Below are positions 1,824-7,196 of a DNA stretch of 64,000 nucleotides, in pieces (position 1 is the first letter of the stretch; each line of letters begins with the position of its first letter). Location: assembly GCA_009694745.1 (NCBI GenBank), contig SHUF01000007.1, positions 1 through 64,000 on the forward strand, read 5' to 3'. The position numbers and the translations under genes were made by a program. This stretch comes from Acidobacteriota bacterium. Lineage in GTDB: Bacteria; Acidobacteriota; Vicinamibacteria; Vicinamibacterales; SCN-69-37. The notes under the pieces were generated by a model that saw only the letters and a list, made by a program, of their open reading frames with translations, made no database searches and was not told the DNA's origin.

Positions 1824-2696
1824 TTACCGCGAAGCTGTCCAGGCGCCAGCTGGACTCGTGCCCTTGATCATCTTTCCGTCCTCACTCACCCTGCCCGTGT
1901 AATGCTGCCCACCGACAGTAAAAGTAATGTCGTAGCCTAGGAGTTTGCCTTCGGTAATAGCGGCGTTGCCAAGCAGGCCTGTGACAAATTGAAACTTCTG
2001 ATAGAGCTTCAATACTTGGCCGTTCATGCTCCAGACGGAGGGTTCCGGTGGCCCCTGAAAGCGCACCTCATCAAGTGGTCTATCGTCCGGGGCGACTTTC
2101 GCCGGCACGACGTAGAGGATCGCCGTGCACCAGCTGGTCTCGCACGGATCAACTCGCTTCTCCGCCTCGGGCAGCCACTCATCTTCGCCCGAGCCCATAC
2201 GGAAGGTGTTGGTCACCACGCGCGTGCCGGGCTTCATGTTCAGGATGGTCGGCCGCAGTTGCTCGTTGAGGCTGGGCAGCAGGAACATGGTGAGGACGTT
2301 GGCTTTTGAGAAGTCGGTCTTGAAGAAATCGCCCTGAACGAACGTGGCGCTGGCAGACATCCCAGCCTCTTCGGCTCGCTGGCGCGCCAACGCCACCATA
2401 TCGGGATTAAATTCGACACCCATGGCCCTGGCACCACGCTTGGCGGCCGTGATCACCGTGATGCCGTCGCCGGAACCCAGATCAACCAGGAAGTCGCTCT
2501 TGGTGAGCTTCGCCATGTCGAGCATCGCGTCCACGGTTGGCTGCGGCGTCGGTACCCAGACCACGTCTTTGCCGGCCTGACCCACCTTGGGCTCAAACGG
2601 TTTTTGTGTGGTCGCCACCTGCGCGGCCAATACGGCACCCGCCAGCACTGCCACGGCGGCACCACCAGAAATCACTCGTCGTGCAAACTCAGTCAT
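1824..2696 (-). CDS. Exported class I SAM-dependent methyltransferase-like protein
   Basis: A 290-residue protein with a hydrophobic N-terminal segment (VISGGAAVAVLAGAVLAAQ) that should export or anchor it. The SAM-binding motif I is clear, VDLGSGDG near residue 72, followed by the acidic motif II (GVEFNPDMV) and the motif IV-like FVQGDFFKTDFS. The C-terminal 80 residues form a separate beta-rich region with several YTG/GYDITFTVGG stretches and are not typical of cytosolic methyltransferases. Related proteins occur in Acidobacteria and Proteobacteria, usually labelled class I SAM methyltransferase with no known substrate. Divergent from the PLP-enzyme gene across a perfect palindrome. SAM availability outside the cytoplasm would be a puzzle, so the N-terminal segment may be an anchor facing inward. 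Confidence 0.8.
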   Translation of the reverse strand: MTEFARRVISGGAAVAVLAGAVLAAQVATTQKPFEPKVGQAGKDVVWVPTPQPTVDAMLDMAKLTKSDFLVDLGSGDGITVITAAKRGARAMGVEFNPDMVALARQRAEEAGMSASATFVQGDFFKTDFSKANVLTMFLLPSLNEQLRPTILNMKPGTRVVTNTFRMGSGEDEWLPEAEKRVDPCETSWCTAILYVVPAKVAPDDRPLDEVRFQGPPEPSVWSMNGQVLKLYQKFQFVTGLLGNAAITEGKLLGYDITFTVGGQHYTGRVSEDGKMIKGTSPAGAWTASR

Positions 2697-2722
2697 GTGA
2701 CGTAAACCCCCGGTCTTGGATT

Positions 2723-2773
2723 CTAAATGAGCTCGTAGCTGATTTGCGGCAAATCAGCTACGAGCTCATTTAG
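2723..2773. promoter_or_regulatory. Perfect 51-bp palindrome between divergent genes
   Basis: Arms 2723-2747 and 2749-2773 are exact reverse complements (25 nt each) around a single G at 2748; the core is AGCTCGTAGCTGATTTGC. It lies between the methyltransferase (leftward) and DSD1 enzyme (rightward). Its outer edges overlap -10-like boxes for both genes: TAGGAT at 2771-2776 (6 nt before the ATG at 2783) and, on the minus strand, TAGAAT at 2720-2725. It could be a shared operator, a cruciform or a palindromic mobile repeat. Confidence 0.8.
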
Positions 2774-2782
2774 GATACCTGG

Positions 2783-3901
2783 ATGCCGTTGTCCCCTCGC
2801 TCACCCTACCCCGTGGTCTCGTCCAGCCGACTGGCGGCAAACATCGCCCGGATGCAGACACTGGCCAACCACGCCGGGGTCCGTCTACGGCCACACGCCA
2901 AGACTCACAAGAGCCCGGTGATCGCCCGCATGCAAATCGAGGCCGGTGCCGTGGGCATCTGCTGCGCGAAGCTCTCGGAAGCCGCGGTCTTCGCCGACGC
3001 GGGCATCACCGATATCCGGATTCCCTACCCGGTCAACCCGTCCAACGCCGACCGCCTGCTGGTGCTGATGGAACGGGTTCGCCTGTCGATCATCGTTGAC
3101 GACGCGGACGTGGCGGTTGACTGGTCGGGCGCGATGGTGCGGGCGAGGAAGGTGCTGGACATCCTAGTGAAGGTGGACGTGGGCACCCACCGATGTGGCG
3201 TGAATCCTGACTCGCCTGATGTGGTGAACACCATTACCCGCATCGCGCGGCTGCCGGGCTTGTCCTTCCGCGGCATCCTGAGCCACGCGGGACATACCTA
3301 CAACGCCGAATCACCCTACGCGCTCGCGGCCATCGTGGCCAGAGAAACCGAAATCATGATCGGCCTGGCGAAGCGCCTTCGTGAGGCCGGCGTACCCGTG
3401 GAGGAAATCAGCGTCGGGTCCACGCCTGCGGCGTCTCTTGCGCCCACCCAACATGGCATCACCGAGATGCGGCCCGGCAACTACGTATTCCTGGACCGAA
3501 CCCAGGTCGGCCTGGGGTCGGCCACGTACGAAAACTGCGCGCTTTTTGTCGTAGCCACGGTCGTCAGCCGGCCGGCGCCTGACCGCGCGATCCTCGACTG
3601 CGGCAGCAAGACCCTGACATCGGACGGAGCACGAGGATTCACGGACCTTCCTGGCTACGGGGCTATCTTCCTGTCTTCGAACGAGAATCAGCCCGACGCG
3701 TCGATTGTCATTGAACGCGTGTCGGAAGAACACGCCGTGTGTCGCGTTCCGGAGTCGTCGCCTCTGCGACCAGGTGATCGGGTCCGTGTGCTCCCCAACC
3801 ACGCATGCACCGTCACCAACCTGACCGATCGACTGTGGTTGGCCAGCGATCAGGGCGCGCTCGCGCCACTCACTGTTGCAGCCCGTGGACGCAACTGGTA
3901 G
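2783..3901 (+). CDS. DSD1-family PLP enzyme (D-serine dehydratase / D-threonine aldolase type)
   Basis: A 372-residue protein of the alanine-racemase-fold D-serine dehydratase-like family. The PLP lysine is K40 in RPHAKTHKSP; DVGTHRCGVNP and GSTPA supply further cofactor-binding loops. The C-terminal LPNHACTVTNL contains H340 and C342, the His-x-Cys pair that binds metal in eukaryotic-type D-serine dehydratases. D-threonine aldolases of the same family split D-threonine into glycine and acetaldehyde, so the reaction (dehydratase or aldolase) cannot be fixed from sequence alone; the His-x-Cys pair leans towards dehydratase. Start ATG 2783 has a TAGGAT box 6 nt upstream and no ribosome site, suggesting a leaderless mRNA. 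A microcompartment shell gene follows 65 bases downstream on the same strand. Confidence 0.85.
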   Translation: MPLSPRSPYPVVSSSRLAANIARMQTLANHAGVRLRPHAKTHKSPVIARMQIEAGAVGICCAKLSEAAVFADAGITDIRIPYPVNPSNADRLLVLMERVRLSIIVDDADVAVDWSGAMVRARKVLDILVKVDVGTHRCGVNPDSPDVVNTITRIARLPGLSFRGILSHAGHTYNAESPYALAAIVARETEIMIGLAKRLREAGVPVEEISVGSTPAASLAPTQHGITEMRPGNYVFLDRTQVGLGSATYENCALFVVATVVSRPAPDRAILDCGSKTLTSDGARGFTDLPGYGAIFLSSNENQPDASIVIERVSEEHAVCRVPESSPLRPGDRVRVLPNHACTVTNLTDRLWLASDQGALAPLTVAARGRNW

Positions 3902-4379: not shown

Positions 4380-7100
4380 CTATCTCGCCCCTGTCAGCGA
4401 ATTGAAGATTACCTTGAAGGTGCCGAAGGTCTGACCGCGCCACTGCGGGCGGAAGCCAAACAGGATCACGCGTCCATCACCATGCTGCACTTCGAGGGCG
4501 GCGGCCTTGCCCTGCAGGTGCTGTTCGCCCAGCAGGTAGCCTGAGGCGAGCGGTGAGCCCGTGTCGGCGTATCGCGCGAGGATGGTGCCCTTGAACCCGA
4601 CGAGTGTTTCGAAGGCCGGGCTCGAGTTGAAGAACACCGCTGTGGTCTTCTGCAGGCCGGCCATCACCGGCTGCGACGGATCAACTTCCACGTTGACCAG
4701 CGAGCCGCCGACGAAAAATTCCTGCCGGCCCAGACCCTGAAGGGTGTTGCGCACCGGCAACTTCAATTGGTCGATGGCGAATGCCGAGCTTCGGTTCAGG
4801 CAGACGAGGGTACCGCCCGCGCGCACGAATTCGTCGATCGCTTTGACGCGATTCGCGTCGCCCTCGGGCAATGCCGACGCACCGGTCGCACCGGCTCCGG
4901 CACCGCGTCCTGCTCCACCCGCACCACCAGCTCCGGCAGGTCCGCCACGGCCTCCACGACCCGCGCCCACCAGCACGCCTCGCGGCTCGTCGGTCACGAC
5001 AATCGCGTCGAATCGCGAGCGCAGGTTGCCCGCGCCAATTTCGTCGGCAGAGAGCTTGGTGAAGGGAAACTCGAAGCGCTCGAGCACCCAGCGCGTCCAG
5101 CCTTCGTCCATGCTTGCGCCGGGGTCGAACATCGCGATGCGCGGCTGACGAAGGGTGGTGGCCCGCGTGGCGACGCGTTCGGCGCGCAACGCCAGTGTCC
5201 GCACCATCGTGTCCTGCGCGTCTGGCGTGAGACCCGAGATGACATAGCGGCCCGAGGCGCCTGCGGCGCCTGGCGCCCATCCGACAGTGGCGCCACTCTT
5301 CCAGGCCTGATTCGCGGCGCGGAACGCGTTGTTCTGCGCGGGATCGATTGCGAGTGACGGTCCGGTGCCGGTGATGGCGCCAGCGGGCGGCACGATCGCC
5401 GCGGCCAACGGAATCGTCTCGAATCCAAGTCCTGGCGCACTGTCGTAGGGCGCAGGATCCGCGCCACCGACTGAGTCGTACTGGGACGTTCGAGCCGTGG
5501 GCGCCGCCACCTGGCCCAAAGGCTTCAGGGCTTTCTTCAACTCCGCACGCTTCCCGTCGTCCAGCGTGCCGATCGTCTGCATCGCCACGCCCATCGAGAG
5601 CGGCAGCGTCCAACCGGCTGCGTCGTATGGCTGCTCGGGCGCGCCACCGGGCGACTCACGGATGTCGGGATACTTCTGCACGTCGAGCACTTCCCTCGCG
5701 AGCGCGATGAACTCCTGATCGGTCGGCACCACCCAGCTGCCGGCCGCGTATGTCACATCACCCACGGTGAAGTCGGCGGTCAGTTCCGATATGCGCACGC
5801 CGCCGAACGCGATCCGCTTCAACATCTCGACCGCGGCCACCGGATCGCGCTGCGCCTTGGGCACCACATACGCCGACGGTCCGCTCGCGCGATGTTGCGT
5901 AATCTGCGCCATCCCCGACCGCCAGCGGTTCATCAGGACGTTGTCTTTGTACGTCGCGGCGTAATCGAGTACCGACATCGACGCGGTGTGCATATAGGCG
6001 ACGGAATCGCCAAGCCCGAAGTGGCCACCCGCCCACGGGCTCGGGTACAGGCTCTGCGGGCGCAGGTCCTGATAGGCCTGCGGAATGTCCTTGATGGTGT
6101 AGTCGCGCGGCGCCGCCATGTTTGCGAGAGCCGTCTCGGTCCAGAACGACGCGATGTTCTTGAACATCGGCGCATAGTCGATGTAGCCCGCGTACCACGC
6201 GTCGAAGCCCGTGCCCATGTGCGTGGCGCCCACCTGGCCGCGTTCTTCAAGACCCTGCGCGATGGCCATGCCGATCGTGTTCACCGTGCGCGACATCAGG
6301 AATGGCGCATGCAACGCGATGGGCTCGGCAAACGGCGGCAGCCAGATACGGGTGGGAAACGGCGCCGTCTGGTGATGCACATAGACGATCTGCGGCTCCC
6401 ACTGCCGCCACGCCTGCTCCATCACTCGCGATTCGATCATGTTGAGCATGTACGCGTCGCGGTTGTTGTCGTGGCCCACGTACTCCTGGTACAGCACAGG
6501 CAACGTCGTACTCACGCCGGGCGTGCCGACGTTCTTCATGTAGTGCTCGGCCACCATCTGATGGCCATCCGGATTGATGGTGGGCCACAACATCAGGACG
6601 ACGTTGTCCAGGATACGTTGCACCTGCTCGTCTCTCCCCGGCTCATTCGGATGCGATGTCAGCAGGTCGTAGGCCAGCTGCAGCGTGTGCTGCGGTCCCG
6701 CGACTTCGGTGGAGTGCAAACCGCCATCGATATGAACGATGGCCTTTCCCTCGCGCGCAAGGGCGCGGGCCTGATCTTCGGTGAGGCCTTCAGGTGACGC
6801 CAGGCGCCGCGCAATCTCGCGGTACCGATCCACGCGCGCCAGATTGCGCTCGGTGGAAATCAGCGCGACGTAGTACGTCCGCCCCTGCGTCGACGTACCC
6901 ATCGGCACAAGCTGCATCTTCGCGCTCGCCGCATCCAGCGCCCGAAAGTACTTGATCGTGTCGTCGTAGGTAGTCAGCTTGAAATCGGCCCCGGGCTTGA
7001 ACCCGATCACCGACTCAGGGGTGGGAACTCCGGATTGGGCGGACAGGGACGCTGATGCAAACAGGAGAGAAACAGCGAGCAGACGGACTGTGCGAGACAT
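4380..7100 (-). CDS. Secreted M14-family zinc carboxypeptidase
   Basis: A 906-residue protein with a signal peptide (residues 1-22, ending in SLSAQS). The N-terminal M14 domain carries the zinc ligands H129-x-x-E132 (GGLHSTEV), NPDGH near 176-180, DNNRD at 211-215 (substrate-binding Asn-Arg region) and HHQT near 242-245 as the third zinc site. The C-terminal half is a long region containing a Gly/Arg/Ala-rich low-complexity linker near residues 730-760 and a GATase-like FVRAGGTLVCLNRSS segment. Such giant M14 proteins are common in Acidobacteria and probably cleave peptides in the periplasm. ATG at 7100 follows a TAATAT box by 6 nt with no ribosome site. Confidence 0.9.
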   Translation of the reverse strand: MSRTVRLLAVSLLFASASLSAQSGVPTPESVIGFKPGADFKLTTYDDTIKYFRALDAASAKMQLVPMGTSTQGRTYYVALISTERNLARVDRYREIARRLASPEGLTEDQARALAREGKAIVHIDGGLHSTEVAGPQHTLQLAYDLLTSHPNEPGRDEQVQRILDNVVLMLWPTINPDGHQMVAEHYMKNVGTPGVSTTLPVLYQEYVGHDNNRDAYMLNMIESRVMEQAWRQWEPQIVYVHHQTAPFPTRIWLPPFAEPIALHAPFLMSRTVNTIGMAIAQGLEERGQVGATHMGTGFDAWYAGYIDYAPMFKNIASFWTETALANMAAPRDYTIKDIPQAYQDLRPQSLYPSPWAGGHFGLGDSVAYMHTASMSVLDYAATYKDNVLMNRWRSGMAQITQHRASGPSAYVVPKAQRDPVAAVEMLKRIAFGGVRISELTADFTVGDVTYAAGSWVVPTDQEFIALAREVLDVQKYPDIRESPGGAPEQPYDAAGWTLPLSMGVAMQTIGTLDDGKRAELKKALKPLGQVAAPTARTSQYDSVGGADPAPYDSAPGLGFETIPLAAAIVPPAGAITGTGPSLAIDPAQNNAFRAANQAWKSGATVGWAPGAAGASGRYVISGLTPDAQDTMVRTLALRAERVATRATTLRQPRIAMFDPGASMDEGWTRWVLERFEFPFTKLSADEIGAGNLRSRFDAIVVTDEPRGVLVGAGRGGRGGPAGAGGAGGAGRGAGAGATGASALPEGDANRVKAIDEFVRAGGTLVCLNRSSAFAIDQLKLPVRNTLQGLGRQEFFVGGSLVNVEVDPSQPVMAGLQKTTAVFFNSSPAFETLVGFKGTILARYADTGSPLASGYLLGEQHLQGKAAALEVQHGDGRVILFGFRPQWRGQTFGTFKVIFNSLTGAR

Positions 7101-7106
7101 AGGTGC

Positions 7107-7112
7107 ATATTA
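7107..7112 (-). promoter_or_regulatory. -10-like TAATAT box, 6 nt before the M14 start
   Basis: On the minus strand TAATAT is followed by 6 bases and the ATG of the M14 gene, the same geometry seen at eight other gene starts in the window. It predicts a transcript beginning at or next to the start codon. No -35 box is obvious. Confidence 0.45.
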
Positions 7113-7196
7113 ACTGGGGAAATTAGGAAGTTGGGAGATTAGGAACAGTAGGAAAGTTCCCCAGTTCCTAACTTCCTAAGTTCCTAACTTCCTAAG
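7112..7196. repeat. Family D inverted repeat (TTCCTAAGTTCCCCAG type)
   Basis: Left arm 7112-7154 and right arm 7157-7196 are imperfect reverse complements built from repeated TTCCTAACTTCCTAAG / GGAACTGGGGAA units, with a near-zero loop. The right arm runs into the MerR-type gene, providing its last codons and its TAG stop. Related direct-repeat stretches are at 36003-36066 and 53767-53800. Confidence 0.7.

Follow-up and report, generated by a model that had tools for sequence, protein, structure and literature searches.

The perfect palindrome at positions 2723-2773 of the 64,000-nucleotide stretch analysed here (the window) is very probably a REPIN-like element that has taken the place of an older GACGTC REP, and we consider it one case of a wider process in which one repeat family is replaced by another while the sites are preserved. 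In the proposed scheme a REPIN would be a pair of inverted REPs that form a long hairpin, non-autonomous and dependent for its movement on a RAYT, a Y1/HUH transposase acting on single-strand DNA; REPINs, or REP doublets, and their RAYT (TnpA_REP) were reportedly described by Bertels and Rainey in 2011. The gap between the two divergent genes that surround the palindrome would be a long-standing REP site in part of the genus, and in the lineage of the window's own genome (G000, 83% complete) the older REP would have been swapped for a GAGCTC-family REPIN. Hereafter, GAGCTC elements are called family 1 and GACGTC elements family 2. All of the genomes used are draft assemblies in many contigs.

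The exact 25-nt arms around a one-base centre that had been reported in the preliminary description were borne out, with base 2748 as the centre, and the arms grow to 28 nt (2720-2747 and 2749-2776) when one mismatch is allowed. Within the palindrome we distinguish REP arm 1, AATGAGCTCGTAGCTGATT (2726-2744, plus strand), a 19-mer of family 1 that is found in identical form elsewhere in the genome, the 7-nt spacer TGCGGCA (2745-2751) and REP arm 2, the inverted copy of arm 1 (2752-2770, minus strand). This is the longest exact inverted repeat of the window when spacers of up to 20 nt are considered, and order-1 Markov resamples of the window (n = 30) contained exact inverted repeats of 13 nt at most. 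Folding of 2720-2776 as DNA gave -27.3 kcal/mol (z = -12.1), and a 21-mer containing arm 1 forms a hairpin by itself with a CGT loop. No Rfam family was matched in the window at gathering thresholds, and the exact doublet with its 7-nt spacer was absent from the viral contigs searched.

The palindrome lies in an 86-bp gap between a class I SAM methyltransferase ORF (1824-2696, minus strand; Pfam Methyltransf_25 and others) and an ORF for a D-serine dehydratase-like/alanine racemase N-domain protein (2783-3901, plus strand; Ala_racemase_N and D-ser_dehydrat, PF01168 and PF14031), so that the divergent methyltransferase and DSD1-type genes previously named at this place agree with both ORFs and Pfam. 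The hexamers are also where they had been described: TAGAAT borders the element on the left (2720-2725, minus strand) and TAGGAT on the right (2771-2776, plus strand), the ATG at 2783 standing 6 nt 3' of the latter. Their role as -10 boxes of the methyltransferase and the DSD1-type gene, respectively, is putative: by eye, similar hexamers stand at matching places in relatives (TAGAAT in G006; TACAAT in G001, G004, and G006), whereas a consensus scan of 2600-2900 returned no sigma-70 promoter. The REPIN takes up all the space between the two putative -10 boxes, so that each gene has a copy of the 19-nt arm a short way upstream, and an effect of the element on both of them is possible.

Two other inverted repeats were observed in the window. 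One, of 43 nt (1592-1634 and 1760-1802, 93% complementary and 125 nt apart), is built of short near-repeats and stands between two convergent genes; among 270 fetched loci, its 16-nt core was found only in those covering the same place. The other is a set of imperfect inverted repeats of TTAGGAAC-like units at 7097-7184, with a long ORF of the minus strand (4380-7100) on one side and a MerR gene on the other, and its 16-nt core recurs in one fetched G000 locus (L178, contig C57).

A search of G000 for other copies, proposed in the preliminary description, located the arm at seven places, as pairs and as single arms. Four are inverted pairs with spacers of 7 (the window copy, contig C15), 35 (C21), 37 (C60), and 7 nt (C71), and the lone arms are on C6, C40, and C80. 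At up to three mismatches G000 gave 13 family-1 matches and the reversed control pattern none; the matches on C26 and C58, with three mismatches each, are probably due to chance and were left uncounted as elements. The arm was matched in 17 of the 60 genomes searched. The sibling genome G005 contained 49 matches (one for the reversed control) of the form AATGAGCTCGGAGG[CT]GATT, and G003 contained none at up to three mismatches. When 48 G005 arms were profiled, the preceding base was A in 41 and the following base T in 40, and the outer flanks presented no base preference from about five bases outward (the arm itself being fixed by the search). As in REPINs, the pairs of G000 and the arms of G005 belong to a family of many scattered copies in which the arms are conserved and the spacer varies. 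Furthermore, the family varies in presence and absence at orthologous sites, as expected of a mobile element; a cleanly empty site is the G003 counterpart (L068) of the L097 element of G005, and six more G003 sites are devoid of a family-2 element, only some of them being cleanly empty. (L064, L067, and L068 belong to G001, G005, and G003, respectively.)

Single REPs folded better than their shuffles in the case of the G000 family-1 arm (z -3.35) and family 2a (z -2.94), with no clear excess for the G005 arm (z -0.41) and family 2b (z -1.06). The possibility that these are canonical GTAG- or GTGG-headed REPs was rejected, no GTAG head being conserved across the families: GTAG is present inside the G000 arm, and the same place reads GGAG in G005 and GGGT or GGGA in family 2. 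A targeting of stop codons by GAGCTC elements was also considered, since in the L093, L097, and L103 empty-site comparisons the TGA of the element is, by eye, at the position of the stop codon of the relative. Nevertheless, of the 54 element sides that have an open frame of 100 codons or more, 19 use the TGA of TGAGCTC as the stop, close to the one third that frame alone would give, and the idea was dropped.

Three further observations concern the distribution of these repeats. A perfect 19-nt family-1 arm (L004 1504-1522, contig C40 of G000) lies within an apparent coding frame that is common to G001 and G002 with a few changes, and this arm is possibly a REP absorbed as codons. In G013, from the same family and another genus, a related arm was matched 37 times, in most cases as AACGACATCGGGTGTCGTT and in most cases as part of an inverted pair, which indicates that palindromes of this kind reach beyond the genus. 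The record of L067 (G005) is labelled Acidimicrobiia; its DNA and gene order fit the Vicinamibacterales group.

The divergent gene pair was recovered in the six congeners, from the ORF lists in G001, G003, G004, and G005, by alignment and translation in G006, and by the gene and the first methyltransferase residues in G002. This comparison of the gap in relatives, also suggested in the preliminary description, found the window palindrome in none of the six. The G006 gap contains a single family-2 REP (17/19, two mismatches) and the G001 gap a weak one (15/19, four mismatches), neither of them with an inverted repeat of at least 10 nt, and the gaps of G003, G004, and G005 contain neither a REP nor an inverted repeat of that length. 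The G000 REPIN fills the interval between hexamers that align by eye with the TAGAAT and TACAAT of the relatives. In G002 the gap is occupied by a long palindrome with nested 37-nt and 22-nt arms that starts with GGGGGACGGGAGTGTTTTCC. This repeat is found in four of the seven genus members, with six matches (three pairs) in G002, and G001 has a copy just upstream of a second group of Y1 genes. In the G002 loci (L065 and L134) the palindrome covers the start of the DSD1-type gene of the relatives and the usual ATG is absent by eye; the gene may start at a GTG within the palindrome.

There were four non-coding family-1 sites of G000 for which both flanks were found in a congener (the window, C6, C21, and C71), and at three of them the congener has a family-2 REP: G001 and G006 at the window site, G003 at C6, and G001 at C21, the left flank being aligned only at a distance in the last two sites (188 nt unaligned for C6 and 564 nt for C21). 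The C71 site is empty in G001. C60 gave one-sided matches only and C80 none, and the C40 arm, being in a coding frame, was not counted.

Genes for Y1 transposases (Y1_Tnp, PF01797) scored above the cut-off in all seven genus members, and those at what we call the rho locus carry NHFH and YVERN motifs, corresponding to the HUH motif and the catalytic tyrosine. The Y1 gene of G005 (C11:90678-91022) stands between two GAGCTC palindromes, one on either side, and the Y1 genes of G000 (C24), G002 (C310), and G003 (C11) are flanked by the second palindrome family, AAAGACGTCGGGTGTCTTT. Arms of this family 2 were matched 30 times in G000, 63 in G001, 43 in G002, 66 in G003, 12 in G005, seven in G006, and never in G004. 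In G000 we found no Y1 gene with GAGCTC flanks, those of the C24 gene being family 2 and those of the C65 gene belonging to neither family, so the case for mobilisation in the window's genome is borrowed from G005. The Y1 genes of G000, G003, and G005 occupy one chromosomal place with common flanking DNA, beside a gene that is putatively rho on reading its sequence. Between G003 and G005, the gene flanking the RAYT has 98.7% identity across 391 translated positions, whereas the transposases themselves are only 55% identical (65% between G000 and G003, and 71% between G000 and G002), indicating that the G005 enzyme was exchanged or diverged unusually fast.

Against NCBIfam NF047646, which has an equivalog cut-off of 80 bits, L120 (73.0), L122 (74.5), and L125 (63.2) scored below the threshold and L130 (98.3 bits) was the sole pass among the four scanned; the two rho-locus RAYTs scanned (73 and 74.5 bits) exceed the Pfam Y1_Tnp cut-off. 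The closest solved structure to the G000 enzyme was TnpA_REP (4er8), with a weak E value of 0.0045. At L122 1851-1901 (C24 of G000) and in L124 (G003), a family-2 REPIN at the 3' end of the gene is read through, so that it encodes the last residues of the transposase, GVFFDEKGTRRLF in G000. Another Y1 group (L129 on C51 of G003 and L130 on C19 of G005) is located amid repeated hairpins, CGTAGGGCCCGCTGGTTTTAAGCGGGCC, which resemble canonical GTAG REPs.

The wider process is clearest in the comparison of G003 with G005, in which the rho-adjacent RAYT would have been exchanged or would have diverged, and in which the family differs at many of the REPIN sites. All the listed family-1 places of G005 were fetched, giving 37 elements at up to three mismatches, and the orthologous G003 intervals were obtained by collinearity, by DNA search, or by their family-2 arms. 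At the 32 sites that were decided, G003 holds a family-2 element in 25 cases and none in seven (L085, L091, L093, L097, L101, L103, and L108), a proportion biased upward because 18 of the 25 shared sites came from fetching G003 GACGTC loci. Twenty-three of the shared sites were assigned by script (seven with one clear arm only) and the other two, the RAYT flanks, which are the two elements of L087 and escaped placement by the script, by reading. Sites L095, L096, L099, and L106 remained unplaced, with no orthologous interval among the sequences fetched, and L109 at 1663, a single arm with two mismatches and an ambiguous G003 interval, was omitted from the count.

When only the sites located without family-2 loci were considered (by position, DNA search, or the RAYT), seven of 14 were shared (L083, L086, the two RAYT flanks, L092, L100, and L111), or five of 12 if the RAYT flanks are excluded; L108 and L111 had been picked for DNA search as unplaced sites, and both had aligned with G001 family-2 loci. 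As a control we took 76 points elsewhere in those G005 loci, each over 200 bp away from the nearest arm and chosen with no restriction to intergenic gaps, and none of them had a REP in the G003 interval (Fisher p = 4.6e-7 for 7/14 vs 0/76). The loose threshold was passed by 24 of 3000 shuffled 90-mers. Outer edges coincide on both sides to within 12 nt at 10 of 23 shared sites and to within 25 nt at 22, and they match exactly at the two L102 sites. Finally, the G005 element of L110 runs directly into the outer portion of the GACGTC arm that is found in G003, a single case seen by eye, which suggests that the new element landed inside the old one. GAGCTC elements of G005 and GACGTC elements of G003 thus often share an orthologous site, which leads us to infer that a REP site endures while the family that fills it changes.

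These shared sites could also be insertion hotspots, so that old REPINs would be lost and new ones inserted independently in the same gaps with no conversion, because few sites of a compact genome tolerate insertion or are exposed as single-stranded DNA; we consider this possible, with a minority share of the probability. It finds support in the G002 gap, which gained a different palindrome and favours a hotspot at the window locus, in the edges, which at 13 of the 23 shared sites lie over 12 nt apart on one side or on both, and in the stop-codon position, by eye, of three of the four cleanly empty sites (L093, L097, and L103, not L085); moreover, the 76 control points were not confined to intergenic gaps. 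However, seven shared sites of 14 have a probability of about 5e-10 if about 1.5% of the gaps are occupied, an estimate from 66 G003 arm matches over an assumed 2500 gaps, and of 2e-6 at 5% occupancy. Independent insertion is also at odds with the two L102 sites, where the outer edges of the two elements agree to the base on both sides, and with the one GAGCTC element, that of L110 as judged by eye, which is fused to an outer GACGTC arm. We prefer the replacement of one family by another at existing sites, with RAYT-driven movement, as the inferred process, and its likeliest mechanism would be that a new RAYT and its REPIN land in, or convert, the REP hairpins already present.

The preliminary description had offered either a recent mobile origin or selection, for example as a dimeric repressor site or a cruciform that controls both genes. 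The dispersed copies, the family-flanked transposase gene of G005, and the presence or absence of the element in relatives speak for mobility. A selected operator would explain the symmetric placement between two putative -10 hexamers and the exact arms, and yet it appears highly improbable: the same arms recur at unrelated loci, at gene ends and within open frames, with spacers from 7 to 37 nt, the gap differs in all six congeners, and the sigma-70 scan was empty. Scattered copies with no relation to promoters, which had been named as the observation that would speak against such a role, are largely what we found, although the element still spans both putative -10 boxes. A bidirectional terminator or an mRNA-stabilising hairpin hardly merits belief; the hairpin is strong and such roles are reported for REPs (PMC6006769), but both genes start outward from the element, so that neither should have a transcript ending there, and a terminator scan of 2600-2900 found none.

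The question of whether REPs evolve by gene conversion is reportedly raised in the title of a paper by Higgins et al. in 1988. The present data are site-by-site, between species, and concern two families. Nunvar et al. 2013 (PMC3686654) describe the REP 'orthoswitch', in which related genomes have syntenic RAYTs whose flanking REPs are of different classes, and in the model given there a new class spreads while the original REPs stay and decay. Our observations are like that description in the syntenic RAYTs with different classes and in the two classes left in some genomes; unlike in that model, the new class is here often at the orthologous sites of the old one. The term was met in no other paper of the literature searched. 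That search, which covered a minority of the subscription literature, yielded no site-by-site report of gene conversion or replacement of REPs or REPINs, and the spread of REPs was described in 2021 as poorly understood (PMC8266576). In pseudomonads, syntenic RAYTs are reported to be stably inherited (Loper et al. 2012, PMC3390384).

The likeness to REPIN/RAYT systems (PMC3686654) lies in the short repeats, which form inverted pairs with spacers of varying length, in their dispersal, in the Y1 gene of G005 with the same family on its flanks, and in the empty sites of relatives. The differences are the lack of a conserved GTAG head and, in G000, of a resident RAYT with matching flanks. The copy number, tens of arms, is as in stenotrophomonads, pseudomonads having hundreds. 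Y1 transposases of Acidobacteria have been described with repeats that are atypical or terminal (PMC6006769, PMC3733652), and the TIRYT-type elements with GGGG-starting terminal inverted repeats that appear in the same papers can be likened to the G002 GGGGGACGGGAGTGTTTTCC palindrome, a family separate from that of the window.

A more specific reading is that REPIN populations are overwritten in place, that is, that the RAYT at a fixed address gives way, by exchange or divergence, to one of another specificity and the new family homes into the old sites, the window palindrome being one of them; this is a tentative proposal that we would put just short of an even chance. If true, orthologous sites would be inherited in the long term while their sequence is replaced genome-wide, and at the window the replacement would have remodelled what lies between two divergent promoters. 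In these genomes, any exact palindrome close to a promoter should be checked in relatives before it is called an operator. Moreover, two close species with two families at many shared sites, and a RAYT that has diverged at one address, represent a natural experiment in which new-site insertion could be told apart from the replacement of older copies.
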